DNA of 62,623 nt from Synechococcales cyanobacterium M55_K2018_004 (GTDB lineage Bacteria > Cyanobacteriota > Cyanobacteriia > Elainellales > Elainellaceae): positions 1 through 62,623 of the forward strand of contig DVEB01000055.1 in the NCBI GenBank assembly GCA_015295905.1, given 5' to 3'. Positions within the stretch are counted from its first letter, which is position 1; the number at the start of each line of letters is the position of its first letter. The notes below the pieces were generated by a model, which saw nothing but the letters and a program-made list of their open reading frames with translations, had not been told where the DNA came from and did not search any database. A program made the translations under genes and the position numbers. Of this stretch, positions 1 through 57,320 are shown one piece after another.

Positions 1-66
1 CCCTTGCTGTTCCGTGCGTGTCACGCACGGAACAGCAAGGGTTTCAGCGCATCCCGAATTCACATT
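1..66. repeat. Family A palindromic element, cut by the window edge
   Basis: The sequence holds the second hairpin of family A (CCCTTGCTGTTCCGTGCG paired with its complement) and the outer end reading TCCCGAATTCACATT. The first hairpin and the other terminus lie outside the window. The same hairpin and end recur many times downstream, for example at 42996-43119. Confidence 0.85.
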
Positions 67-9568: not shown

Positions 9569-9688
9569 CCAGTTCTAGTTCAGCGGGTTTTGGGGCGCTG
9601 CGCCGGGCGCAGTGCCCCAAAACCCTTGATGTTTTGTGTGCGTCGCGCACAGAACATCAAGGGTTTCCGCTGATCCGGAATTCACGTT
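9569..9688. repeat. Family A element
   Basis: Both hairpins are present: GGGTTTTGGGGCGCTGCG with its partner, then CCCTTGATGTTTTGTGTG with its partner. The right end reads CCGGAATTCACGTT. The left terminus is eroded: the AACGTC is replaced and a short AGTTCTAG(C/T)TCAG phrase is duplicated. Confidence 0.85.
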
Positions 9689-10696: not shown

Positions 10697-11382
10697 ACCA
10701 AACTGCACTCAACCTCACTGCCATCACTCTCTTCACCCTGGTCATGACCTCGCTGCTAGGGCCGCTGCTGCACATCCCACCCACCGTTCCAGCGATCGCC
10801 GTGGCCGTGGTTATGGGACTGGGCACCCTAGACACCTTCGCATGGCAGGGCCAGGGGAGCAACTTACTGTTGGACTGGGTTGCCGGGTTTTCTCCAGAAC
10901 ACCGCGATCGCATCATCCGCCACGAAGCCGGACACTTTCTGGTCGCTTACCTGCTCAACATTCCCGTAACGGGCTACACTCTCAGCGCCTGGGAAAGCGT
11001 TCGCCAAGGACAACCGGGGTTGGGTGGGGTGACCTTCGACACTACGGAACTGGAAACGGAACTAGCTCAGGGTAACCTTTCACCACAACTAGTTGATCGC
11101 TTTTGCACGGTGTGGATGGCCGGCATCGCGGCTGAGACCATGATTTACGGCAGTGCCGAGGGGGGAGCGGACGACCGCCAGAAGCTACAGATGTTATGGG
11201 CTAGTTTGAGGCGATCGCCCAGTGAAAGCGATCTGAAAACTCGGCTGTCGATCCTGCGGGCGAAAACTCTGCTCGAACAGAACCAGGATGCCTACAACAC
11301 GCTGGTGGCAGCCCTAAAACGACGTGCTTCCCCAGAGGAATGCCGCCAACTCCTAGCCTCACGTGAATCCGAGATCAGCTAA
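10693..11382 (+). CDS. Membrane-bound M41-like zinc protease without AAA domain
   Basis: A 229-residue protein with one or two N-terminal membrane helices and an FtsH-type protease core. The zinc motif is H77-E-A-G-H81 and a candidate third ligand is Asp160 or Asp161 (in GGADDRQKL), close to the FtsH spacing. There is no Walker A/B ATPase module, so it cannot unfold substrates by itself. It starts with GTG overlapping the VanY stop. The last residues (SRESEIS) and the TAA stop are encoded by a remnant of repeat family A, so the C-terminus is probably not ancestral. Similar AAA-less proteins occur across cyanobacteria; their job is not known to me. Confidence 0.78.
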   Translation: MNQTALNLTAITLFTLVMTSLLGPLLHIPPTVPAIAVAVVMGLGTLDTFAWQGQGSNLLLDWVAGFSPEHRDRIIRHEAGHFLVAYLLNIPVTGYTLSAWESVRQGQPGLGGVTFDTTELETELAQGNLSPQLVDRFCTVWMAGIAAETMIYGSAEGGADDRQKLQMLWASLRRSPSESDLKTRLSILRAKTLLEQNQDAYNTLVAALKRRASPEECRQLLASRESEIS

Positions 11383-11411
11383 AAAAAACCCGCTTCACCT
11401 AAACTGATGTT
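11360..11411. repeat. Internally deleted family A element overlapping a gene end
   Basis: The left terminus ACGTGAATCCGAGATCAGCT is followed after a short A-run by the right terminus ACCCGCTTCACCTAAACTGA and TGTT. Both hairpins are missing. The left terminus is read as coding sequence for the end of the M41-like protein. Confidence 0.65.
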
Positions 11412-11632: not shown

Positions 11633-11735
11633 GCCCACTAGTGTTGATCACCCTGTACAGATCTACACACAACACCTCGCTGTGCGGGGTTTCCCACAAA
11701 ACGTGTTTTACATCATGAGCGCCTAGCGTCATATT
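11633..11735. repeat. Family B palindromic element, degenerate
   Basis: The core hairpin arms (AACACCTCGCTGTGCGGGG with GTTTCCCACAAAACGTGTT) and the trailing ACATCATGAGCGCCTAGCGTCAT match family B, but the left end is poorly conserved. It abuts the family A copy that follows. Confidence 0.55.
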
Positions 11736-11736
11736 A

Positions 11737-11860
11737 AACGTGAGTTCGAGATAAGCTGAAACCCTCGAGGTCTCCTGCGCACCGCGCATGGAACATTCAG
11801 AGTTTGAGAGCATCGGGCAATGCGCGGTGCCCTCAAACCCGCTTCATCTAAGCCGACGTT
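11737..11860. repeat. Family A element, degenerate
   Basis: Both termini are recognisable (AACGTGAGTTCGAGATAAGC and CGCTTCATCTAAGCCGACGTT), but the two internal hairpins have diverged so that they pair only in part. It immediately follows a family B copy. Confidence 0.7.
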
Positions 11861-11944
11861 AGCACTACTAGTCCAAAATCCAACTGAAACCTACAGGCCC
11901 GATCTGTCGTCATAGAGCAGGTTGCAATCGGGTGTACCTGAAAA

Positions 11945-14726: not shown

Positions 14727-14844
14727 AGAATTGATTGGTTCGTCAATGGGTGAAGGCGAGACTCCCAACCGACGGGAGCAAGGTTGGCGTTTTGAACCTG
14801 AGCAGGCGGCTCTTCTGGGCTTTACGCATAACGAGTTTATGCAT

Positions 14845-14910
14845 AACGTCAGTTCTGGGTGAGAGGGTTTTGGGGCACCGCACATGGCGCAGTGCTTCAA
14901 AACCCTTGAT
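14845..14910. repeat. Family A element, truncated
   Basis: AACGTCAGTTCTGGGTGAG is followed by the first hairpin (AGGGTTTTGGGGCACCGCAC paired with GTGCTTCAAAACCCTT). The second hairpin and the opposite end are missing. Confidence 0.75.
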
Positions 14911-15530
14911 TTTACACAGGGCCACTACGTAACCCCACACAATCAAAACGAGCCAAGAGTGAAGAACTGCATTGCTTAAGACTTGCACTACTTAGGAAGA
15001 GAATGCCCCTTTTCCGACAGAAATTCATCAAGCGCTACATAATTTCGCGGTAGAAGACAGCCCCGATCGCCCCAATTCACCTAGTCAACTTACGCAAACG
15101 AGAAGTGCCAGCAATTCTCTAGAAGCGTTTGGGCTGCCAAGGCATCTCCCTCCTGCCAACAAAAATTAAGCTGGTTAGATGATTTGCTCAGAAGTTGACT
15201 AATCTGAAACAGTATAAAAACATCTGGAGATATCTTAGCCCTTTGGCTCAGACCTCAGGTGTCGTGTGAGCTAGCGTAGATAAATTTACATACAAAATCT
15301 GCTGAAAACAGGTACGAAATTCCAATTTTGGCGCTATGCTATGGGGCAGATTTAAAAATATCCTGATTTTCAAACTGAGTGCTCTGAAAAAAATCGTGTT
15401 CTACAAAAATCGCGTTGAGAAGCCTGTAACTCTGTAAGGGGGGTCTTAGAAAGGGGGGTTAGGCGTATTTAGGGTTATCCTTTCCTAGGCTGCTGTTTTG
15501 GAGGCAGGGGGGCATTGTCGGCTACCCGAT
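14911..15530. other. Gene-free stretch
   Basis: About 620 bases with no credible coding region. Near 15437-15472 a G-rich phrase, AAGGGGGGTC and AAAGGGGGGTT, is repeated. Confidence 0.45.
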
Positions 15531-17096: not shown

Positions 17097-17199
17097 TATG
17101 GCGCTACACGCTCATGCTGTCCAAGACGTTTTGTGAGAAACCTCGCTGCGCGAGGTTTCTCACAAAAACGTTGTCCTAACCAATGCGTGTAGCGCCATA
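17097..17199. repeat. Family B palindromic element, best copy
   Basis: TATGGCGCTAC at the left end is mirrored by GTAGCGCCATA at the right end. The centre is a strong hairpin, AGAAACCTCGCTGCGCGAGG flanked by ACGTTTTGTG and CACAAAAACGT. A TA dinucleotide at each end would fit a TA-targeting transposase. Confidence 0.85.
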
Positions 17200-19434: not shown

Positions 19435-19560
19435 ACGTGACGTGAATTCGGAATAAGCTGAAACCCTTGCTGTTCCGTGCGCGACGCGCACGGAACAGCA
19501 AGGGTTTGGGGGCACCGCGCATGACGTAGCGCCCCCAACCCGCTTAACCAAAACTGGCGT
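19435..19560. repeat. Family A element with direct repeats
   Basis: Complete termini and both hairpins (the second is AACCCTTGCTGTTCCGTGCG with its complement). TGCTTA occurs at 19429-19434 and again at 19561-19566, a probable target-site duplication. An extra ACGTG is present at the left end. Confidence 0.85.
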
Positions 19561-19653
19561 TGCTTAGGGATTTGCCATTGGAATCCCATGATGCGCTGCG
19601 AGTGCTACAGGATCGGCGTCATCAACGCTCACAGCGCCATCAATCAGCCACGC

Positions 19654-23449: not shown

Positions 23450-23506
23450 ACGTCAGTTCGGGTTAAGCGGGTTTTGGGGTATCGTGTGCTGCGCGGTGCA
23501 CCAAAT
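23450..23506. repeat. Family A fragment
   Basis: ACGTCAGTTCGGGTTAAGCG plus part of the first hairpin; the rest is absent. A separate hairpin, TGGGGGCGACGCCCCCA, follows at about 23520-23536 and may terminate the SUI1 gene or the convergent gene. Confidence 0.7.
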
Positions 23507-23569
23507 CTGATGAGAGGGGTGGGGGCGACGCCCCCATCAGGAAGCGTTGCCCCTTCGATTTCAAGAGTC

Positions 23570-25398: not shown

Positions 25399-25521
25399 AA
25401 CGTGAATTCCGGATCAGCTGAAACCCTTGATGTTCCGCACGCAACGCCCATGCAACATCCAAGGTTTTGGGGCACCGCGCCGGGCACAGTGCCCCAAAAC
25501 CCGCTTAACCAGAACTGACGG
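25399..25521. repeat. Family A element with direct repeats
   Basis: Complete copy. TTGCCT at 25393-25398 and again at 25522-25527 frames it as a probable target duplication. The second hairpin has accumulated mismatches (GATGTTCCGCACGCAACGCC). Confidence 0.85.
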
Positions 25522-25603
25522 TTGCCTCAGTTTCGACGAAAGCTGCAGAGGCGATCGCACATTGATACCAAATCAGGGGAGAATAGAAAAAATGAATTTA
25601 TGT

Positions 25604-25724
25604 AACGTGAATTTGGCATGAGGTGAAACTGCTGGCTTTTCGTGTGCGTCACACACGGACAATTAACAGTTTTGTGGCCCTGAGCACCGCGCGGAGCCCA
25701 AAGTCCTCTTGATCCACCATGACG
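25604..25724. repeat. Family A element with direct repeats, diverged
   Basis: The termini read AACGTGAATTTGGCATGAGG and TTGATCCACCATGACG. TTATGT is found at 25598-25603 and 25725-25730. Both hairpins are partly decayed. It lies only 80 bases after the preceding copy. Confidence 0.75.
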
Positions 25725-25850
25725 TTATGTAAACAAATTGATGTAAGCACGAGGCAAACAGCGCAGCTTGGGCAAATCTACTTGCCGCGCTGCATTCGTT
25801 TGAGTTGTTCAAACCCTTTTGAGTGTTCAGACACCTTCCAGGAGCGCACC

Positions 25851-26222: not shown

Positions 26223-26310
26223 CACGCATTCAAAAACTGCCGCGTCACGACTCGGTCTGCCCCCCTTGCGGGAAGCGAGCTACACCCTTTCATTCGAAAG
26301 CATCTTAAAA

Positions 26311-26418
26311 TTCCTCTCCCAAGTTGGGGAAGAGACTTTGAGATGTTCGTCTCTCCTTCTCCCAAGTTGGGAGAAGTTGGGAGAAGGGACTAGGGGATGA
26401 GAGCCTGCAAAGGTGGCA
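26311..26418. repeat. Family D repeat
   Basis: It carries CTCTCCCAAGTTGGGG and CTCCCAAGTTGGGAG palindromes, a duplicated AGTTGGGAGAAG and the end GAGCCTGCAAAGGTGGCAGG, the reverse of the copy at 13863-13974. Confidence 0.7.
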
Positions 26419-29298: not shown

Positions 29299-29435
29299 CC
29301 ATAGTAGGCGCTATGCGCTCATGATGTAGAAGGGTTTTGGGGCATCGCACCGTGTGTGGTGCCCCAAAACCCTTGCTGTTCCGTGCACGACGCGCACGGA
29401 ACAGCAAGGGGTTTAGCTTATCCCGAATTCACGTT
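29299..29435. repeat. Chimeric repeat: family B end fused to family A
   Basis: The left end CATAGTAGGCGCTATGCGCTC plus ATGATGTAG is a family B terminus. It passes directly into the family A hairpins (AGGGTTTTGGGGCATCGC..., then CCCTTGCTGTTCCGTGCACG...) and the family A end TCCCGAATTCACGTT. The family A left terminus is missing. Confidence 0.75.
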
Positions 29436-31618: not shown

Positions 31619-31712
31619 TAAATCCCTCTCCCCAATTGGAGCGGGGCTTTGAGCAGGCTCGGCTCCCCTTCTCTTAGGTTGGGAGAAGAGGCTAGGGAAT
31701 GAGGATCTGCAA
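31619..31712. repeat. Family D repeat
   Basis: It contains AATCCCTCTCCCCAATTGGA, then CTTCTCTTAGGTTGGGAGAAG and GGGAATGAGGATCTGCAAAG, matching the other two family D copies with some divergence. Confidence 0.65.
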
Positions 31713-31762
31713 AGGCGATATGCGCCCTTCGATACCTGCCATTTGAGGAGTGTCGAGTTAAT

Positions 31763-33628: not shown

Positions 33629-33904
33629 ATGCAGCCTTCAGACCAGTCCTCTGCCTACCCCGTCACACCAACCGTTGACCAAGTGGATGATTATCACGGG
33701 GTCAAGGTTGCTGACCCATACCGTTGGCTAGAAGACCCTAACTCCGATCAGACCCGGGCGTGGGTAGAGGCCCAGAACCGGGTAACGTTTGGCTATCTGG
33801 AGGGCATTGCCGAGCGCGATCGCCTCAAGCGACGCTTGACCGAATTGTGGGACTACGAGAAATACGGCATTCCCTTCAAGCAGGGGGAACAGTATTTTTT
33901 TTAA
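33629..33904 (+). pseudogene. Prolyl oligopeptidase (S9A) truncated by a repeat element
   Basis: The first 91 residues of a prolyl endopeptidase: [22 protein letters not shown], then [21 protein letters not shown] and [19 protein letters not shown]. Family members have about 690 residues, so the rest of the propeller and the whole catalytic domain are missing. The frame closes in TAA contributed by a family A element that begins at 33903. I find no remnant of the missing part after the repeat, so a deletion accompanied or followed the insertion. Confidence 0.88.
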
Positions 33905-34025
33905 CGTGAATGCCAGATACGCTGCCCCCCTTGCTGTTTCGTGCGTGTCGCGTACGGAACAGCAAGAGGGTCGGGGCACCGCGCGGTGCGCGGTGCCCTG
34001 AAATCTGCTTAACCCAAATGAAGGT
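33903..34025. repeat. Family A element that interrupts the prolyl oligopeptidase gene
   Basis: The left end AACGTGAATGCCAGATACGC is followed by both hairpins (the second one first in this orientation). The right end is degenerate (TGCTTAACCCAAATGAAGGT). No direct repeat can be seen at the flanks. Confidence 0.85.
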
Positions 34026-34413: not shown

Positions 34414-37400
34414 ATGGCGACTCTGATTGGAACTTCAGGTGATGATTTTCTTGTTGGTACTTCCCTCGCAAACCTGATTCTGGGTGAAGCTGGAGATGAT
34501 GTTCTCCTGGGAGAGGGAGATAGCGACAGAATTGTTGGGGGTGCGGGCAACGACTTTATCAATGGTGGAGCAGGTAACGATGAAGTTGATGGCGACGATG
34601 GCGACGATACCCTCTTAGGGGGCGAGGGCAACGATATCCTGCGCGGCGGCTCAGGCAACGACTTCCTGGAGGGGGGGCTCGGCAATGATGTACTGGAAGG
34701 GGGCGATGGGGACGACTTTCTGTTTGGCGGGCCGGGACGCGACATCCTGACGGGCGGTTTTGGTAATGACAGCTTTGTTATTAGCAATGGCTCCGGTGGG
34801 CCACGACTTGGCAATGCGAATATCATCACCGACTACGTAGATGGGCAGGACAAGATCTTGCTGGCCAATGGTCTACGATTTGGTCAACTCAACATCTTTC
34901 AGGGCACTGGCGCTCAGGCCAGAAATACCATCATTCAAAACCGTCTGACGGGAGAGTTTCTGGCCATTTTGCAGGGAGTCAACCGTCGAGTCATTAACTC
35001 CGCCGATTTTGTGGCGCGCACTCTGCCTCGGCCTGACACTGCTCCCCCCCAACCCGGCAGACTGTTTATCCAAAACATCACCACTTCAGGCATTTCGGAA
35101 CAGGTCTTCAGTGTCCAATTTGCTGATGCAGTGCAGTTGAATAGCAGAAGTTTCCGTAGTGGCAATGTCGCTGTCACTGGGCCAAACGGGTTTCAGCAAC
35201 TGGCAGAACTAGTCAGTGTCGATCAACCCGGAAATGGTACATCGCGCACTGTAACCTACAGAATTATCGCTCCCAATGGCGACTGGAACGCAAATAATAA
35301 TGGTACCTATCAGGTCACGCTCCTGGCAGGGCAGATCTTTGATACCAGTGGCAATTTTGCCAGAACCGCTGCTTTGGGTAGCTTCACGGTCAATGTTCCA
35401 ATTCCCGTAGTGCCAGTTTCTATCTCTGTTTCATCCGATCAGGTGGTAGAAGACAGTGGCACCACCATGACCTTTACCTTTACCCGCGAGGAATACCTGC
35501 TTAACGCCCTTGCAGTCTCGTTTAACCTCAGCGGTTCTGCAACCGTCAACCGAGACTTTACGATCGCTGGGGCAACTTTCAATAATGGCGTGTGGACGGT
35601 GAACTTCGCCCCCAATGCAGCCACGGCAACCGTCCAAATCACTCCCCTCGCAGACAACCTACGGGAGGGGGATGAATCCATCATTGTCAGCCTGGTACCT
35701 GGTGCTGCCTATCGTCCTGGTTCCTCCGATATTGTTTCAGCAGTAATTCTGGACGATGAGAGCGACATCACCCTAACCGTCGAACCGGCCAGCGTGTTGG
35801 AGGACAGTACCGGCGCGATGGTTTATACGTTCACTCGCAGTGGCTTCGCGGAACGAAACATCACTGTCAACTTTGCCATTTCTGGCACGGCTAGTTTCGG
35901 CAGTGACTATACAGTGTCAGCCCCCACAGGCACCCTCTTCAGCTTTAATGGGACAACGGGCAGCATTAGTTTTGCGGCGGGGGAATCGAGCAAAACCCTC
36001 TTGATTAGCCCAATTGCGGACACCACCTTTGAAGACAATGAGACCGTAGCATTGCAACTCAGTGCTGGGGTAGGTTATGCGCCTGCAACAACGAGTCCCG
36101 TCGTTGGCACCATCCTAAACGATGAGGCGGCGATCGCCCTGTCCGTCTCCCCTGGCGAAGTAGCAGAAGACAGCGGCACTTCGCTGGTCTATACCTTCAC
36201 CCGCACCGGCTTCACAGGCAATCCCCTCGCGGTTCGATTTACCCTCAGTGGCACGGCCAGCCCAACAGACTACACGCTTAGTGGAGCCACTATCTCTGGT
36301 AATAGCGGCATCATCTCCTTCGGCCCCGGCGACACCACCGCCACCGTTATCGTGACGCCGAATGCCGATGCCGTCCTGGAGGACAACGAAAGCCTGACAC
36401 TCACCCTCGATGCCGGGACTGGCTATGTGTTGGGCAACCAGACCACGGCAACTGGAATAATTTTGAACGACGAAGGCAGTGTCAGCCTGACCGTCACGCC
36501 CGAAAGCGTCATCGAAAATAGTGGTACGTCCTTAGTTTATACCTTCACCCGCAGCGGCTTTATTGACCGGGCCATTACCGTCATCTTTGATGTGGGCGGC
36601 ACGGCTACTTTTGGTGGTGCTGGCAGCGACTACACTGTGACGCCTGGGCCTGGTACCACTGCAACCTTCGGGGTCAGTGGCGGAAGCGTCAGTTTTGCGG
36701 CAGGCGAAACTGTCAAGACCTTGCGCATTAGGCCCATCGGCGATATCAACCGCGAGAGTGATGAAACTGTCAGCCTGCAACTGCGCAGCAACAATGGCTA
36801 TGTTGTGACAACACCGGACCCAGTGATAGGGACGTTTATCGATGACGATGCTGCTGTTTCCCTTTCAGTCAATACTCCAGCGATTGAGGAAGACACAGGC
36901 ACGATTATCTATACCTTTACTCGTGCAGGCTTCCTGGGCAATGCGCTGACGGTTCGCTTTAGTGTCGGTGGGACAGCAACCCCTGGCAGCGACTATACGG
37001 CTTCTAGTGATGCTGCCAACTTAGACTTTGCCGCTGGTGCGATTACCTTTGCCCCCGGACAGGACACTGTCCGCCTCACCCTCACGCCCACTCGCGATAC
37101 CAACCTGATTGAGCAAGACGAAACGGTCTCGCTGCAATTGCTGCCTAGCACAACCTACGAAGTCAGCACCACTGGTGCTGTGACCTCAACTATCCTGAAC
37201 GACGACGGCATCGTCCGAAATACGGCAGACAGTGGGGCGGGCTCTTTGCGTGAGGCCATTTTTGCTGCCCTCAATCCGCTCTCCACCAGTTCTGTGATCA
37301 CCTTCGCCCCTACTGTCTCCGGGACGATCAACCTGTCTTCAGCCCTGCCCGTTCTGAGTCGCAATGTCACGATCATTGGGCCGGGGTCTGCTGTGTTGGA

Positions 37401-37995
37401 GGTGCGCCGCAGTTCTGGCGAGAACTTCCGTATCTTCCAGGTCAGCCGTAATGCAACGGTATCCCTTCAGGGACTGGCGATCGCCAACGGCAATGCCAGC
37501 CTAGGTGGAGGCATCTTAAATGAAGGTACGCTAACCCTAACAGATACCTTAATTACCGGAAACACTGCCACCATCGGTGGCGGCATTCACAACACGGGTG
37601 ACCTGTTGCTCAGCAATGGCAACGACATTGTGAACAATACAGCAACTCTTCAGGGTGGTGGTATCTATAACAACGGCACCCTCAACATTGCGGCTCAGGA
37701 TAATACTCTGGCAAACATCAACGTAATTGCTGGTAACTCCGCTATCAACTTTACGGGGGGTGGTATTTATAATGACCGGACAGCAACCATCATCAACGCT
37801 AGCTTCTCGAACAACCGAGCCAGCCTCGATGTCAGAAATAGTAGCGGTGCAATCTACAACGCGGCGTCTGCTAGTCAACTTCAGGTCGGCAATAGTTTCT
37901 TTAACCGGGGAACGCTCAACTCTCCCAACATAATTGGTGGCCCTAACGGGATTGGGGCGATCGCCTATACTGACCTAGGCGGCAATGAGTTCTAA
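34414..37995 (+). CDS. RTX/Calx-beta repeat protein with C-terminal beta-helix
   Basis: A 1193-residue extracellular-type protein. Residues about 5-120 are RTX nonapeptides (GGxGxDxxx, for example GGAGNDFINGGAGNDEVDG), which bind calcium. Residues 120-215 are an RTX-associated beta domain (IITDYVDGQDKILL). Residues 215-330 are an Ig-like SwmB-type domain. From about 335 to 930 there are five Calx-beta domains, each opening like VSPGEVAEDSGTSLVYTFTR and closing with ILNDE. The last 260 residues are a right-handed beta-helix of polymorphic-outer-membrane-protein type (GGGIYNNGTL). No Sec signal is present, so type I export is likely. Adhesin or surface protein is an inference. Confidence 0.88.
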   Translation: MATLIGTSGDDFLVGTSLANLILGEAGDDVLLGEGDSDRIVGGAGNDFINGGAGNDEVDGDDGDDTLLGGEGNDILRGGSGNDFLEGGLGNDVLEGGDGDDFLFGGPGRDILTGGFGNDSFVISNGSGGPRLGNANIITDYVDGQDKILLANGLRFGQLNIFQGTGAQARNTIIQNRLTGEFLAILQGVNRRVINSADFVARTLPRPDTAPPQPGRLFIQNITTSGISEQVFSVQFADAVQLNSRSFRSGNVAVTGPNGFQQLAELVSVDQPGNGTSRTVTYRIIAPNGDWNANNNGTYQVTLLAGQIFDTSGNFARTAALGSFTVNVPIPVVPVSISVSSDQVVEDSGTTMTFTFTREEYLLNALAVSFNLSGSATVNRDFTIAGATFNNGVWTVNFAPNAATATVQITPLADNLREGDESIIVSLVPGAAYRPGSSDIVSAVILDDESDITLTVEPASVLEDSTGAMVYTFTRSGFAERNITVNFAISGTASFGSDYTVSAPTGTLFSFNGTTGSISFAAGESSKTLLISPIADTTFEDNETVALQLSAGVGYAPATTSPVVGTILNDEAAIALSVSPGEVAEDSGTSLVYTFTRTGFTGNPLAVRFTLSGTASPTDYTLSGATISGNSGIISFGPGDTTATVIVTPNADAVLEDNESLTLTLDAGTGYVLGNQTTATGIILNDEGSVSLTVTPESVIENSGTSLVYTFTRSGFIDRAITVIFDVGGTATFGGAGSDYTVTPGPGTTATFGVSGGSVSFAAGETVKTLRIRPIGDINRESDETVSLQLRSNNGYVVTTPDPVIGTFIDDDAAVSLSVNTPAIEEDTGTIIYTFTRAGFLGNALTVRFSVGGTATPGSDYTASSDAANLDFAAGAITFAPGQDTVRLTLTPTRDTNLIEQDETVSLQLLPSTTYEVSTTGAVTSTILNDDGIVRNTADSGAGSLREAIFAALNPLSTSSVITFAPTVSGTINLSSALPVLSRNVTIIGPGSAVLEVRRSSGENFRIFQVSRNATVSLQGLAIANGNASLGGGILNEGTLTLTDTLITGNTATIGGGIHNTGDLLLSNGNDIVNNTATLQGGGIYNNGTLNIAAQDNTLANINVIAGNSAINFTGGGIYNDRTATIINASFSNNRASLDVRNSSGAIYNAASASQLQVGNSFFNRGTLNSPNIIGGPNGIGAIAYTDLGGNEF

Positions 37996-40520: not shown

Positions 40521-40643
40521 ACCTGAATGCCAGATAAGCTAAACCCCTTGCTGTTCCGTGCGCGTCGCGCACGGAACAGCAAGGGGTTTAGGGCATCGCG
40601 TGCGACGCGGCGCCCCAAAACCCTCTTAACCCAAACTGATGTT
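40521..40643. repeat. Family A element
   Basis: It carries the perfect second hairpin (CCCCTTGCTGTTCCGTGCGC with its complement) and a diverged first hairpin. The ends read ACCTGAATGCCAGATAAGCT and TTAACCCAAACTGATGTT. The right end sits four bases from the stop of the convergent cnfR-like gene. Confidence 0.85.
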
Positions 40644-40647
40644 AAGA

Positions 40648-42282
40648 CTAGCCAAGCCCAAGAATGCGGCTGAGGAGAAGCTGATCTTCCTGTTTGGCCT
40701 GAAAGCGCCCGTTTTCCACATCGCGAATCCAACTCTGACTTTTACCAGTACGCGCTGCTAGTTCACGCTGGCTAATGCCTTGACGTTTGCGAGCATTCAT
40801 GATCTGTTCGCCTGTGAGGAAGACCTGGGGCTGGGACACCTCTGGCTTGACGGGCTGAGAGGTCATTGAACGGCGTTGCCGCTGGCGAGACGTCTGCCGC
40901 TTCTGCTTAAGCGCAATAATGGGTTGTTCCCAGTCACGCGGCAGAGAAAACCCAGAAATGCGGGCGTTCATTAGCAGGTTCCACTTCCCGCGTGGGCCAG
41001 CATCAGTCAAACGATTGGCCTGACTACCATCCTTTGTCCAGAACTCTAGAGCGGCCTCAGCATCATCGGGCAGATCTGCCAGTTTCGCCCACAGGGGTTG
41101 AATTTCAGGGGGATAGGTTGTGGGGTCAAACTGGGGTTGGATGCCGTAGTGGGCCATCACCTCCAGATCGCTCTCAAAGGTACGGATCAGGCGTTTGCGC
41201 TCCTCCCGGTGGACGGCAGCATGGGTAATTTTCTCCTCCCCATAGGCGATCCGCATCAGCGTTGGCACCATAACTCGTTGTTCCTTGCCGATGCGCACCT
41301 TAAACAGTAACCACAACATCATCCGGGCCGCTCCCTCGTGCTGTTGCCATAAGCTCATAACAGCTCCGAGCAGCGACTTGGGTAGAATGCCGTACTGATA
41401 AAAGGCCGTTCGCTCTCTACACCCCTCGCGATTGAGAAAGTATTGCGTCCAAACACCGGGACGAATACGGAAGGTTAGACCGACGAGGTGTTTGCAGCCT
41501 TGATCGTCCTCCTGGAAGTGATGTTGTATGTCGAGCAAATGCCAGAGGCGACTATGTTCTGCGGCAAAGCTCTTGACTCGCCCCTGGGCTGGACAGTGGA
41601 TTGTCAGCTTTAACAGACAGGGTTGTTGAGCGATTTCCTTGATGAGGGAGAGTTTGGTCGGTTTGCTGAGATCCTTACGCTTGTCGAGTCCTAGGTATTC
41701 TTCAATTTGGCGATCGGTGATAACAAATTCCTGTTCCCAAGGGCGATCGAGCGCTGTGGCGTAGGCCGCGTAGATCAGGTGCATACAGGCCGACCGGATA
41801 TCCATCATGCCGAGGGTTGCCAGCGCTCTGGAACCCTTGAGGGCAGGCGGGGGGGGGTCATCCACACTGTCTGTGAGTTTAAGGGTCAGAGTGCAGTGTT
41901 GGTTGAAGGTGCGACGATAGGAGAGTGCTCCCGTTTCTTCTTCCTCTTGCCACAGCAGCGATCGCCGTTGTGCCAGTAGGTTACAGGCTTCCCACATCAC
42001 AATGGACGAGGCGAAGGGATGGCTACGACCATTGGGAAACAAATCTTGACTGGTGGGCGGATATTGAGTGATGCGAGTGCGCCCCTTTTTGGCCTGGATG
42101 GGCGCAGGAACACTGATGGGACAGCGCACAACACACTGAGGTTCATCTGCATGGCCTTCGCACTGGTTACACAACTCTTGGTTGATGGAGTATTGGCCTT
42201 TGACGATCTCAATCGCTCCGGTGGGGCATTCGGGGCGACAAGTGTCACAGCGGATACAGTCTGTGGAGATTTTGTACGACAT
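40648..42282 (-). CDS. cnfR: CnfR/PatB-type ferredoxin-HTH transcriptional regulator
   Basis: A 544-residue protein with two [4Fe-4S] clusters at its N-terminus (Cys 9, 12, 15, 19 and 38, 41, 50, 54) and an XRE-type helix-turn-helix at the C-terminus (NARKRQGISQRELAARTGKS plus SWIRDVENGR). The long middle part has no motif I know. This architecture is that of CnfR of Leptolyngbya boryana, an oxygen-sensitive activator of nif genes, and PatB of Anabaena. No nif gene lies in the window. ATG 42282 is preferred: AAAGGAA lies about ten bases upstream and the first cluster follows immediately, whereas the longer frame adds 32 residues. Confidence 0.85.
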   Translation of the reverse strand: MSYKISTDCIRCDTCRPECPTGAIEIVKGQYSINQELCNQCEGHADEPQCVVRCPISVPAPIQAKKGRTRITQYPPTSQDLFPNGRSHPFASSIVMWEACNLLAQRRSLLWQEEEETGALSYRRTFNQHCTLTLKLTDSVDDPPPPALKGSRALATLGMMDIRSACMHLIYAAYATALDRPWEQEFVITDRQIEEYLGLDKRKDLSKPTKLSLIKEIAQQPCLLKLTIHCPAQGRVKSFAAEHSRLWHLLDIQHHFQEDDQGCKHLVGLTFRIRPGVWTQYFLNREGCRERTAFYQYGILPKSLLGAVMSLWQQHEGAARMMLWLLFKVRIGKEQRVMVPTLMRIAYGEEKITHAAVHREERKRLIRTFESDLEVMAHYGIQPQFDPTTYPPEIQPLWAKLADLPDDAEAALEFWTKDGSQANRLTDAGPRGKWNLLMNARISGFSLPRDWEQPIIALKQKRQTSRQRQRRSMTSQPVKPEVSQPQVFLTGEQIMNARKRQGISQRELAARTGKSQSWIRDVENGRFQAKQEDQLLLSRILGLG

Positions 42283-42988
42283 TGCACCGGGAATTCCTTT
42301 CGTGCAGAGGGCAGTTGAGTGGTGGACAAGATCCCCAAGTCGGATGAATACGTGGAGAAATAAGTTATCTCCAATCAATTTGGATTTGGATATAGAGGCG
42401 CCTCTTAAACCCGGTTGTTATGGTGCGATCGCTCGTGATAGTTGCATTATCCCTAGACGTTGAACCACTGCAAGCCTTCAGCAAGGGCAAGCCCTATCGG
42501 AAAAGGAGCCAGTGCAGACTGTCAACAGTAGAGGTCATCATGCCTTCATTGAGACTGAAAACAAAAATATATAACATTACAGAAGAGGCATCAGTGACTC
42601 GCAGGTGAATCAACCAACGGTTCCTTCACAGCACGGATACTGTAACCAGGCGTGAGGACTGTGTGATCATCGGAGAACCATGTACTCTTCCAGACGGTAA
42701 AACACTTGAGTGAGTGTGGGGAAGACAATCAATCAGAGAACACATTGAAAAATAAGGACAGCCTAAAAACAGAACCGCCTGAAAATAAAGGCGAGTCTGA
42801 TAAAGACGATGAATCCAAAATATAAATTGAGTTATTTCTATCATTTTTCAAGTGAGACACGCTTTCTGTTCAGTCTGAGCGATTACAGATTATTTTAATA
42901 TTTTTTTAATTTTTCCTTACCATAGCCCCTATTGTGGCCATCGCTCCCACAAGACTATCGCTCCCTCAGCAGGGCAACCTCCAAAGCT
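42283..42988. other. Gene-free stretch
   Basis: About 700 bases. The first part should carry the cnfR promoter on the minus strand. A Lys/Glu-rich frame at about 42745-42825 (KTEPPENKGESDKDDESK) has no credible start codon and no ribosome site. The last 150 bases are very AT-rich. Confidence 0.4.
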
Positions 42989-42995
42989 CTGACAT

Positions 42996-43119
42996 AACGT
43001 CAGTTCGGGTTAAGCGGGTTTTGGGGCACCGCGCCGGGCGCGGTGCCCCAAAACCCTTTCTGTTCCGTGCGCGTCGCGCACGGAACAGAAAGGGTTTCAA
43101 CTTATCCCGAATTCACGTT
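42996..43119. repeat. Family A element, most perfect copy, with target duplication
   Basis: This 124-bp copy has termini AACGTCAGTTCGGGTTAAG and the mirrored CTTATCCCGAATTCACGTT, a first hairpin (GGGTTTTGGGGCACCGCGCC with its complement) and a second (CCCTTTCTGTTCCGTGCGCG with its complement). CTGACAT at 42989-42995 is repeated at 43120-43126. I use it as the reference for the family. Confidence 0.93.
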
Positions 43120-43126
43120 CTGACAT

Positions 43127-43486
43127 AGGAGTAGACAAAACGCTCATACTTTGTAGCACGCACTACTCATCTGCTTTATTTATGGGTTGCAAGGTGAAGT
43201 AAATCAAAAGATTTATGGGTCATTTGAAATCGGGTGGTAGACATAGAAGAAGTATGTCGAAAGTGTTACCCCAAAAATCCCGGTAAATAGGGAGATTAGC
43301 AAATACGTATACATACTTCCTTCATGCGAATCGACTTTTGTGTTGAGGCCGATGGGTGTGGTGCTAGGCACTGCACCTTGTGGGCCAAGTCATTCCACTC
43401 TGGTGCAGGAGCATACGAGTCGTAACAGCCCCGTTGTTTTGCACTCACTGGAACCGCTCTCGTTCCCTCTCCGAAGCCAGTCCCTG
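43127..43486. other. Upstream region of the cta operon
   Basis: AT-rich at first, with no supported gene. It should hold the operon promoter. Confidence 0.4.
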
Positions 43487-46224: not shown

Positions 46225-46332
46225 CCGGTAATCCTGATTCATGCCGGCACGATGGCAGGACTGATGCTACTGTCCTGCCATCGGCCCCCAATTCATCCTC
46301 CCCATTTCTTACCCATCACTCCTCCCCTCACT

Positions 46333-46965
46333 ATGCAAGGTTTTACTGTCGATTCTTCCGAAGCAGTCCTGAATTCTTCCCATCCTTCGGTGGCTGCCGC
46401 AACTCACCATGAGGAACACCAGGATCTACGTGTTTGGGGGCTGTTGACCTTCCTGATTTCTGAATCTGTCATGTTCCTGGGTTTCTTCACCGCCTACCTG
46501 TTGCTCCGCAATATGGCGGCGGAGTGGCCCCCCGAAGGAACGGAGGTGGAGCTACTGGTGCCCACCATCAACACCATTATTCTGGTGTCCAGCAGTTTTG
46601 TGATTCATATGGGCGATGTAGCCATTAAGCAAGGCGATGTCAATGGCCTCCGCAAGTGGTACATCATTACCGCCATCATGGGGGCTGTGTTCCTTGCAGG
46701 TCAGGTCTACGAATACGCGACGCTGGGCTATGGCCTTACCACCAATGTCTTCTCCAATTGCTTCTATCTCATGACGGGCTTCCATGGTCTGCACGTCTTT
46801 GTCGGGCTGTTGTTGATCCTGGGTGTGCTATGGCGATCGCGCCGAGAAGGTCACTACAGTGCCACCAAGCACACCGGCGTTGAGATGGCTGAGATCTATT
46901 GGCACTTTGTAGACATTATCTGGATCATTCTGTTCACCCTGCTCTACATCCTCACGCTGTTCTAG
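46333..46965 (+). CDS. ctaE: Cytochrome c oxidase subunit III
   Basis: A 210-residue membrane subunit with five helices, of the short cyanobacterial type. LLTFLISESVMFLGFFTAYL, MTGFHGLHVFVGLLLILGV and VEMAEIYWHFVDIIWIILFTLLYIL are typical. ATG 46333 (MQGFTVDSSEAVLN) fits the family; a frame from 46252 would add 27 Pro-rich residues. The last residues (TLF) are followed by TAG whose last two bases are the first of a family A element. Third gene of ctaCDE. Confidence 0.95.
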   Translation: MQGFTVDSSEAVLNSSHPSVAAATHHEEHQDLRVWGLLTFLISESVMFLGFFTAYLLLRNMAAEWPPEGTEVELLVPTINTIILVSSSFVIHMGDVAIKQGDVNGLRKWYIITAIMGAVFLAGQVYEYATLGYGLTTNVFSNCFYLMTGFHGLHVFVGLLLILGVLWRSRREGHYSATKHTGVEMAEIYWHFVDIIWIILFTLLYILTLF

Positions 46966-47090
46966 CGTCAGCTCGTCTTATTCAGAGGGGTTTGGAGCAC
47001 CACGCATGGCGAGGTGCTCCAAACCCCTTGCTTCTCTGCATGGGTCGCCAGGGAAACATCAAGGGTTTCAGTTTATCCCAAATTCACGTC
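46964..47090. repeat. Family A element starting inside the ctaE stop codon
   Basis: The left end AGCGTCAGCTCGTCTTATTC is a mutated terminus; the first hairpin (GGGGTTTGGAGCACCACGC) is good, the second is decayed. The right end is TTTATCCCAAATTCACGTC. Confidence 0.8.
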
Positions 47091-50775: not shown

Positions 50776-50854
50776 AACGTGAATTCCGGATAGGCAGGTA
50801 GTGGGGCACCGCACCGGGCGCAGCGCCCCACCACCCGCTTAACCAGAACTGATA
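50776..50854. repeat. Family A minimal form with only the first hairpin, with direct repeats
   Basis: It is 79 bp. The ends AACGTGAATTCCGGATAGGC and CGCTTAACCAGAACTGATA enclose only the GGTAGTGGGGCACCGCACC hairpin. TGCCTTT occurs at 50768-50774 and again at 50855-50861, so the short form itself may have moved. Confidence 0.85.
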
Positions 50855-50920
50855 TGCCTTTGACGCGAGAGAGATGATTGATTGCTGGCACAGCCGTGGT
50901 TTCGCATAGCCATTTCTCCC

Positions 50921-51688: not shown

Positions 51689-52090
51689 GGCCAGCAATAC
51701 CCCGACTGGTTAGCGATTCCAGGGTAACAGAAGGAATTGTCAAGATTTTGTAACTGATGTTACGCCCAATCATCAGACAGGACTGCTAGTCCATTGACTT
51801 TGAGATTTGGACTTAAGGAATACTGACTACAAATCGGTTAAGGGTAAAATAAATGTAAGGTTAAATTTTGGAGTACAAACTTTCCCTACTGCAATCATTA
51901 ACAAATCCTAAGAAATTACACCATCTCTGGATTCCAGGTTTTGTTCTAGTGAAGGGGTTGCAATAATTGAAGATCCTGTTGATCGGTTGATCTAGGGGTT
52001 TGTTGAGCCAAGGTCTTGCTACAGAGGGTTTTGTCGTCGTCCTCTGTTGAGCTTCCCTCAGACGACCATTGGGTACACCACATTGATTCT
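51689..52090. other. Gene-free divergent promoter region
   Basis: About 400 AT-rich bases between the response regulator and a small gene on the plus strand. A possible upstream frame extension of the small gene from TTG 52016 is not supported. I see no clear binding site. Confidence 0.4.
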
Positions 52091-52342
52091 ATGCTTCAGG
52101 ACACTCAAACCATCCGCTATTACCAACGGGTTACCGATGCCCTCAACGAGCAGTGGAATCGTGGCTATCGCTTCGACGAGCTGCGTCTCTACCTAGACGG
52201 CTACCTAGCTGCCCTCCGGCATGCTAACGCCCTTGAACCGTACCTGATCCACCGACTTGAAGAAGAGGCAACCCGTTACCTTTACGATCCGTCTAGCTTC
52301 GAAATGCCTCAGCCTGAGTCAGAACCCGATTACTATCAATAA
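52091..52342 (+). CDS. Conserved small cyanobacterial protein, 83 aa (DUF6761-like)
   Basis: An all-helical acidic protein: MLQDTQTIRYYQRVTDALNE, then QWNRGYRFDELRLYLDGYLA, ALRHANALEPYLIHRLEEEA and TRYLYDPSSFEMP. I recognise the pattern as a family conserved among cyanobacteria that has no known role. The stop codon TAA consists of one base of the gene and the first two of a family A element. Confidence 0.75.
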   Translation: MLQDTQTIRYYQRVTDALNEQWNRGYRFDELRLYLDGYLAALRHANALEPYLIHRLEEEATRYLYDPSSFEMPQPESEPDYYQ

Positions 52343-52464
52343 CGTCAGTTCTGGTTAAGCGGGTGTTGGGACACCGCGTCGGGCTCCGTGCCCCAACACC
52401 TTGGCTGTTCCGTGCGCGACGCGCAGGGAACAGCCAGGGTTGCAGCGTATCAGGAATTCCTGTT
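52341..52464. repeat. Family A element starting inside a stop codon
   Basis: The left end AACGTCAGTTCTGGTTAAGC is intact and follows a T, forming TAA. The first hairpin is GGTGTTGGGACACCGCG with its partner; the second is CTTGGCTGTTCCGTGCGCG with partial mismatches. The right end is eroded (CAGGAATTCCTGTT). A further terminus remnant (CCGAATTCACGGT) is at about 52514-52526. Confidence 0.85.
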
Positions 52465-52560: not shown

Positions 52561-53484
52561 GTGCTTCAAGATAATCGAAAAGCAGTGCGGCGAGTTCTCC
52601 TGATTACGCTGGGTTTGAACTTGGTTGTGATGGCACTCAAGGCATTCATTGGCTTGGTGACTGGCTCCCTCAGTCTATTAGCAGATGCCCTCCACAGCGT
52701 GACTGACAGCGCTAACAATGTGCTGGGACTCGTTGCCAGTCAGTTTTCCTCTCCCGAACCCGATCGTGATCATCCCTACGGCCACCAAAAGTTTGAGGCG
52801 ATCGGGGCACTAGGAATTGCTGCCTTTCTAGGCATTGCCTGTTTTGAAATTTTGCAAAGTGCGGTCGAACGGATCTTTTCTCAGGCCGACCCGGTCAGAA
52901 TTTCTGAAACAGAACTCTGGTTGCTCCTAATTGTGTTAGGCATCAATATTTTTGTGGCCTTCTACGAAAGAAGTGTGGGACGGCGGGTGGGCAGTCCGAT
53001 TCTGATTGCCGATGCCAAACATACTATGAGTGATGTGTGGGTCACCATCAGTGTGTTGGCGGGGTTGATCGGGGTCTGGGCATGGGGATTGCAGTGGCTC
53101 GATGTGGTGCTGGCCTTTCCGGTGGCGCTGCTGGTGTTCTGGAGTGGGTGGTCGGTGCTGCGGGAAAACCTGCCCTGGTTGGTAGATGAGGTGGCGATCG
53201 CCCCGGAAGCCATCCACACTGTTGTTATGCAGGTGCCGGGTGTGTTGAACTGCCACAGCATTGCCTCACGCGGCCTGCTGGGTCGGCAAGTGTTCATCGA
53301 GATGCACTTAATCGTGGATGCCAGCGACGTGGAAGCAGCTCATGCCATCACCGAGGCTGTGGAGGAACGGTTAGAAGAGGAATACCGCCCAGTCCGTATC
53401 AACATCCACGTTGAACCTCCCCACTACAAGTCTGACCAGATCAGCTACACGCCTCAGGCGGAGAACAAGAAGCACTCGCGCTGA
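52561..53484 (+). CDS. Cation diffusion facilitator (CDF) transporter
   Basis: A 307-residue exporter of divalent metals with six membrane helices. The first zinc-site pair appears as LLADALHSVTDSANNVLGL (D and D/N pattern) and the second as ADAKHTMSDVWVTISVLAGL with H and D. The PYGHQKFEAIGAL segment is a family hallmark. The cytoplasmic C-terminal domain (VMQVPGVLNCHSIASRGLLG...HVEPPHY) is of the usual alpha/beta type. Start GTG 52561. The last residue and TGA stop are inside the remnant of a family A element (CGCTGAAACCCC), so the C-terminal tail beyond HVEPP may be altered. Confidence 0.88.
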   Translation: MLQDNRKAVRRVLLITLGLNLVVMALKAFIGLVTGSLSLLADALHSVTDSANNVLGLVASQFSSPEPDRDHPYGHQKFEAIGALGIAAFLGIACFEILQSAVERIFSQADPVRISETELWLLLIVLGINIFVAFYERSVGRRVGSPILIADAKHTMSDVWVTISVLAGLIGVWAWGLQWLDVVLAFPVALLVFWSGWSVLRENLPWLVDEVAIAPEAIHTVVMQVPGVLNCHSIASRGLLGRQVFIEMHLIVDASDVEAAHAITEAVEERLEEEYRPVRINIHVEPPHYKSDQISYTPQAENKKHSR

Positions 53485-53625
53485 AACCCCTACTGTTCCG
53501 TACGCGACGCGCACGGAACAGTAAGGGTTTTGGGTCACCGCGCTGGGCGCGGTGCCCCCAAACCCGCTTAACCAGAACTGACGGTTTTTTACATCATTTT
53601 TTACATCATGAGGACGTAGCGCCAT
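53479..53625. repeat. Family A copy (left end lost) followed by a family B end
   Basis: GCTGAAACCCCTACTGTTCC begins a copy with both hairpins and the right end CGCTTAACCAGAACTGACGG TT (to 53586). Then TTTTTACATCATGAGGACG and TAGCGCCAT, part of family B, run to about 53625 with a duplicated ACATCAT phrase. Confidence 0.8.
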
Positions 53626-55621: not shown

Positions 55622-55730
55622 TATGGGGCGCTACGCGCTCATGATGTAAAACACTGTTTGTGGGAACCCTCGCTGCGCGGCGTTTCCCACAAACAGCATG
55701 CTCCTAACCTAGGCGTGTAGCACTACAATA
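55622..55730. repeat. Family B palindromic element
   Basis: TATGGGGCGCTACGCGCTCA at the left and GGCGTGTAGCACTACAATA at the right enclose the hairpin GGGAACCCTCGCTGCGCGG with flanking TTTGTG and CACAAA arms. Confidence 0.8.
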
Positions 55731-55732
55731 TA

Positions 55733-55817
55733 AATTCGGAATACGCTGAAGCCCTTGCTTTTCCGGGCGCGGCGCGTAGGAAACATACAGGGTTTCAGCG
55801 TATCTGGAATTCACGTT
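55733..55817. repeat. Family A minimal form with only the second hairpin
   Basis: It is 85 bp. AATTCGGAATACGCTGAAGC at the left is mirrored by TTCAGCGTATCTGGAATTCA at the right, so the whole is one long inverted repeat around the second hairpin. The first hairpin and its terminus are absent. Three bases separate it from the family B copy. Confidence 0.8.
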
Positions 55818-57215: not shown

Positions 57216-57320
57216 TACAGCGCTAAACGCATAGGTTAGACCAACGCTTTTGGTGGGAACCCCCACTGCGCGGGATTTCCCACCAAAAGCGTTTTACCTT
57301 ATGAGTGCGGAGCGGCATAA
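57216..57320. repeat. Family B palindromic element, diverged
   Basis: The central hairpin is CGCTTTTGGTGGGAACCCCC with GGGATTTCCCACCAAAAGCG. Ends read TACAGCGCTAAACGCATAGG and TTATGAGTGCGGAGCGGCAT. Confidence 0.75.

Follow-up and report, generated by a model that had tools for sequence, protein, structure and literature searches.

Previously described systems

MITEs can outlive their autonomous partner, and a partner in the same genome is not a strict defining feature of such elements. The double-hairpin elements of fungal mitochondria consist of two adjacent hairpins, are apparently mobile and are not known to have transposase ends. Among bacterial insertion sequences, the ends of the IS982 family start with 5'-AC and its direct repeats vary in length (PMC7335449). 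MITECca01 of a Cardinium endosymbiont is described as an IS982-derived MITE of about 240 bp, with its parental IS intact in the same genome (PMC9769881). In cyanobacteria, the MITE Nezha has been proposed to move by means of a resident ISNpu3-like IS (Zhou 2008, cited in PMC3049150 and PMC10969869). As a yardstick for copy number, a review puts ERIC at 711 copies in Photorhabdus luminescens (PMC10969869).

Here we describe a 122-bp repeated element in a window of 62,623 nt (the whole stretch of DNA that was analyzed) and in the cyanobacterial genome to which that window belongs, referred to below as the host genome. Its two adjacent hairpins and apparent mobility recall the fungal mitochondrial elements, a likeness of layout. 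As in the IS982 family (PMC7335449), the ends begin with AC, the 18-bp inverted repeats are those found around the IS982 transposase genes of relatives and the direct repeats are variable, but the element has no transposase gene, measures 122 bp rather than approximately 966 bp and is similar only at its ends. With MITECca01 it shares a non-autonomous nature, IS982 inverted repeats, a mostly intergenic location and many copies, whereas no hairpin body is mentioned for MITECca01 (PMC9769881), and the parental IS is intact there while none was found here. The likeness to Nezha, another cyanobacterial MITE with a proposed IS mover, is one of published description only. The element is of an ordinary kind, an IS982-type MITE, but its body is unusual and its copies are very numerous; what is new here is the body of two adjacent palindromes, which differs in sequence between genera and is constant in size.

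Architecture of the reference copy

The top-scoring match to the family profile in the window, taken as the reference copy, is a 122-bp core (ACGTCAG...TTCACGT) at 42997–43118 on the plus strand. The target duplication at its flanks, given as CTGACAT in the initial annotation, is visible by eye and is really 9 bp long, TCTGACATA at both 42988–42996 and 43119–43127 (plus strand), although the final A of the left copy may be part of the element end. The inverted termini and two stems claimed for this copy are present as described. The left terminal inverted repeat (TIR), ACGTCAGTTCGGGTTAAG at 42997–43014 (plus strand), is identical to IS982-family element ends in relatives, and the right TIR at 43101–43118 (minus strand) reads ACGTGAATTCGGGATAAG inward, so that the inverted ends match imperfectly over 18–20 bp. 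Between them, two near-perfect palindromes abut: hairpin 1 (GGGTTTTGGGGCACCGCGCC / GCGCGGTGCCCCAAAACCC) at 43016–43056 and hairpin 2 (CCCTTTCTGTTCCGTGCGCG / CGCGCACGGAACAGAAAGGG) at 43054–43094, the latter extending to 43051–43097 through an AAACCC segment common to both. Folded as single-stranded DNA, the copy reaches −56.3 kcal/mol, whereas shuffled sequences average −22.2 (z = −13.2). The 122-bp core consists of TIRs and palindromes and has no coding capacity, and an Rfam search at the element matched no known RNA family.

Copies in the window

The window holds 18 copies. Every place listed in the initial annotation proved genuine, but several are one-hairpin or half copies; the profile search recovered 17 of the 18, and the remaining one (11360–11411, minus strand) is a remnant that retains both TIRs, 50 bp apart, and no hairpin. 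Besides the reference copy, full copies lie on the plus strand at 9569–9688 (with a degenerate left end), 46963–47089 and 52340–52463, and on the minus strand at 11737–11861, 19440–19561, 25400–25522, 25605–25727 (diverged), 33904–34021 and 40521–40644, the last of these 3 bp past the stop of a minus-strand gene ending at 40648. The copy at 1–66 (plus strand) is truncated by the contig start to hairpin 2 and the right end, those at 14844–14915 and 23450–23511 (both plus) are half copies with the left end and hairpin 1, and the copies at 29331–29435 (plus) and 53480–53586 (minus) lack the left and the right end, respectively. One-hairpin copies are found at 50777–50855 (minus, hairpin 1 only) and 55728–55817 (plus, hairpin 2 only). 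The flanking repeats previously noted for four copies were confirmed by eye: TGCTTA at 19440–19561, TTGCCT at 25400–25522, TTATGT at 25605–25727 and TGCCTTT at 50777–50855. In two cases, the upstream ORF ends on a stop codon contributed by the copy itself: the initial TAG of one copy (46963–46965) closes ORF 46252–46965, and the initial TAA of the other (52340–52342) closes ORF 52016–52342.

Copy number, size classes and age

Allowing two mismatches at most, a search of the 5.0-Mb host genome for the terminal pattern gave 1,277 matches (644 + 633), compared with one for a reversed control pattern. By profile, we found 240 copies in 985 kb of this genome (123 of them full length, 2.3% of bases), or one per 4.1 kb, close to the one per 3.7 kb claimed from the window. 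Extrapolation from the 985 kb gives approximately 1,200 copies and 2% of the DNA for the whole genome, a rough figure because the sampled stretches include contigs chosen for good matches. Inward-facing ends lie most often 46, about 77–81 or 121–123 bp apart, corresponding to no, about one and two hairpins; a class near 77 bp is chimeric, with one arm from each hairpin.

Host-genome copies have a median identity of 86% to their own consensus. Younger copies, at about 97% identity, occur in Kaiparowitsia implicata and Leptolyngbya sp. FACHB-8. Roughly 1,000 copies of one double palindrome in a small genome, together with younger bursts in two relatives, constitute a natural experiment. Many contigs of the host assembly start or stop some 20–100 bp from the end of a copy (for example C10, C44, C136 and C145), and the repeat therefore probably fragments the assembly.

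Target duplications, empty sites and genomic context

In the host genome, 42 of the 139 full copies analyzed have a flanking direct repeat of 5–9 bp, where shuffling the right flanks among copies gives about 1.6. The young copies of K. implicata and FACHB-8 have flanking repeats in 84 of 99 cases (about 2 expected), with lengths of 6 (46 copies), 7 (34), 8 (2) and 9 bp (2); 81 of the 84 begin with T and 66 end in TA. The target duplications are therefore variable in length (6–9 bp) and of the form T(N3-6)TA. The comparison with shuffled positions proposed in the initial annotation was thus run, and the repeats stand far above it. The empty sites it proposed to look for in sister strains were found instead in paralogous repeats within the host genome: when the two flanks of the 46-bp copy L068 are joined, they align across the junction, with no gap, to many uninterrupted members of another repeat family, and the flanks of the full copy L012 do the same with a repeat in L058. 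The element is short and non-coding, with TIRs, target duplications above chance and empty sites, and so the earlier description of it as MITE-like holds.

Copies avoid genes and sit just downstream of stop codons. Using gene calls from a simple codon-score script, we found none of the 240 host-genome copies well inside a predicted gene, compared with 63% of random positions, and 72 of the 192 placed copies (37.5%) lie between convergent genes, compared with 15.5% expected by length. Stops are a median of 62 bp away and starts 287 bp; 49 copies have a stop within 10 bp, and 2 have a start that close. The young copies show the same tendency, with 0 of 85 inside genes.

IS982-family transposases as the probable movers

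The initial annotation held that mobility must be supplied from elsewhere and proposed a search for a full-length insertion sequence with the same ends. Such elements were found in relatives, as IS982 elements, and not in the host assembly. In five genomes (G013, G019, G020, G024 and G034), genes for IS982-family transposases, some of them broken, are enclosed by ends of the form ACGTSAGTTCGGGWTAAG, which are the 18-bp ends of our element, set approximately 966–988 bp apart. These genes score up to 262 bits with NF033520 (cut-off 130), and the protein is a DDE transposase (PF13612, E 5.6e-73). Around one IS982 copy we saw the duplication TAGCTA in the same register, the sole intact target duplication seen around an IS982 copy. 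The ends of the element, ACGT/ACCT, have the initial AC of the family, and the duplications of 6–9 bp fit IS982 because direct repeats of variable length are published for it. Compared with the published inverted-repeat consensus AC(N)6T(N)5TT, the ends agree in the AC and in the T at position 9, while the TT is one base off. Identification of the element as an IS982-type MITE, a known kind, is well supported, and it names a transposase family for a large share of the intergenic repeats in these cyanobacteria.

The presence of a transposase differs among the genomes with copies. K. implicata (G024) has an IS982 transposase, whereas in FACHB-8 (G035) none was detectable at E 0.1 despite its young copies, and the driver there is therefore missing or unassembled. 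The IS982 protein had no tblastn match at E 0.1 in the whole host genome, an absence that is not final because the assembly is a draft of 362 contigs, and in the fifth of that genome sampled as stretches, none of 49 distant TIR pairs looked like an autonomous element with these ends. Without an IS982 transposase in its genome, the family looks orphaned, and it seems to have outlived its transposase there.

Two other accounts of the repeat have very little left to them. Many copies are partial, as would be expected of dispersed chance or ancestral repeats that never moved, but the excess of target duplications over shuffled partners and the empty sites in paralogous repeats rule this out for practical purposes. 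REPIN or BIME elements moved by a RAYT (Y1) transposase are likewise short, intergenic and present in many copies, with paired palindromes, but our element has DDE-type TIRs and target duplications, and Y1_Tnp (PF01797) is absent from the host genome by a search in which the controls were detected; we consider a REPIN origin extremely improbable. The joint explanation that we favor, with a probability of about 0.88, is a non-autonomous MITE that would be moved in trans by IS982-family DDE transposases and whose arms would be kept up at the DNA level. The transposase would bind the 18-bp ends, cut, and join them at the target as in IS982, and fold-back copying by template switching, with one arm as the template for the other, would keep the arms complementary and invert the loop, as covariation and flipped loops suggest. 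In the host genome, where no transposase was found, most copies would now decay neutrally, and they may persist just past gene ends because they are least harmful there.

Distribution of related elements

Among 390 sampled genomes of the class, the exact two-ended pattern occurs in 5 and the two-hairpin body in only 3. A contig scan found IS982-ended elements of 112–133 bp with target duplications and weak folds in Nostoc, Calothrix, Fischerella, Gloeocapsa and others, and their right ends resemble the AAGGGTTTCAGCTTATCCCGAA of the host-genome family; the two-hairpin form may therefore derive from this wider IS982-ended set. Those of Nostoc and Calothrix may or may not be Nezha. Longer forms (about 135–165 bp) with the exact ends were found nowhere across the phylum.

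IS982-ended elements of Nostoc, Calothrix, Fischerella and others (L222–L294) fall mainly into lengths of 112, 122 and 133 bp, in steps of roughly one helical turn. Helical phasing of the length is suggestive only, since without the 122-bp class it is not significant by a rough hand estimate and the genomes are related. One genome (G014, L150–L161) has a separate MITE family, whose 163-bp and 267-bp forms have IS982 ends and target duplications and contain several short hairpins.

Maintenance of the palindrome arms

The terminal repeats are nearly identical across the three genomes, whereas the arm sequences diverge, those of FACHB-8 the furthest; between genera, palindrome sequence varies while palindrome size and the 122-bp length stay constant. 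In host-genome stems, we counted 310 paired double-change cells, where independent arms would give about 42 that are both changed and paired, and in the 99 young copies 83 paired double cells (about 17 both-changed expected) and a single unpaired double, although such counts overstate independent events, as many changes are common by descent. Counted as distinct changes, the young copies have 24 doubles (11 of them transversions) beside 28 one-sided. One young copy (L167) carries a paired insertion in both arms. The loops, too, are found in either reverse-complement orientation in each of the three genomes, with GAC/GTC at 40:11 and TTC/GAA at 18:7 in young copies and GTC/GAC at 30:23 in the host genome. 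Traces of the rewriting of inverted repeats by bacterial DNA, whether paired changes, the paired indel or a flipped loop, can thus be counted copy by copy. By eye, the AAACCC segment common to both hairpins shows three-way covariation (for example GTG/CAC/GTG in L012 at 1503–1624; also L017 at 1501–1625 and L025 at 1501–1626). An apparent lack of one-sided inner-stem changes in K. implicata, from a first small young sample, was dropped when a larger sample showed some.

Template switching between inverted repeats is reported to homogenize arms and invert spacers (PMC8604942), and the covariation and flipped loops therefore point to DNA-level homogenization of this kind rather than to selection on RNA. 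We regard template-switch copying as the likeliest reason that the arms stay complementary, and selection for pairing may act alongside it. Selection could instead act on the palindromes as transcribed RNA hairpins that protect or terminate mRNA 3' ends, as the position of copies just past stop codons and between convergent genes, the very stable fold and a lean of one-sided changes to G.T in FACHB-8 (17 vs 4 cells) would allow. That lean is absent from the other two genomes, and in the host genome one-sided G.T and A.C are about equal (273 vs 284), which indicates no RNA-strand bias. The 11 transversions among the 24 young double changes have no route through G.U, the loops flip orientation and no U-tract follows either hairpin in the sequence, all of which make an RNA function unlikely.

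A slightly better, but still doubtful, alternative is that so short an element needs its palindromes to transpose, with DNA-level selection for a cruciform or single-stranded form that lets the ends meet. The two-palindrome body would then be a selected device that pairs the ends in IS982 transposition, each cycle rewriting one arm from the other. The 122-bp plan of two abutting palindromes that persists in three genera with differing arm sequences is consistent with this, as is the rarity of hairpin-less 46-bp forms in the host genome, but 46-bp and 80-bp forms bear target duplications too, and so do the 112–133-bp IS982-ended elements of other cyanobacteria, which have no strong hairpins.

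Other repeats in the window

Two further repeats were seen in the window. The GCGCTACGCGCTCATGATGTA repeat (11675–11732, 17100–17166, 29308, 53599–53625, 55627–55693 and 57261–57318), often adjoined by a CCTCGCTGCGCGAGG hairpin, has 57 matches in 985 kb of the host genome, never as a close inverted pair. A third family, rich in CTCCCAASTTGGGAGA (13898, 13941, 26308–26413 and 31620–31715), has 33 matches in the same 985 kb, and one of its repeats is the empty-site target for one 46-bp copy. In addition, four tandem coding repeats with a spacing of about 350 bp lie at 35449–36560, inside ORF 34414–37995.
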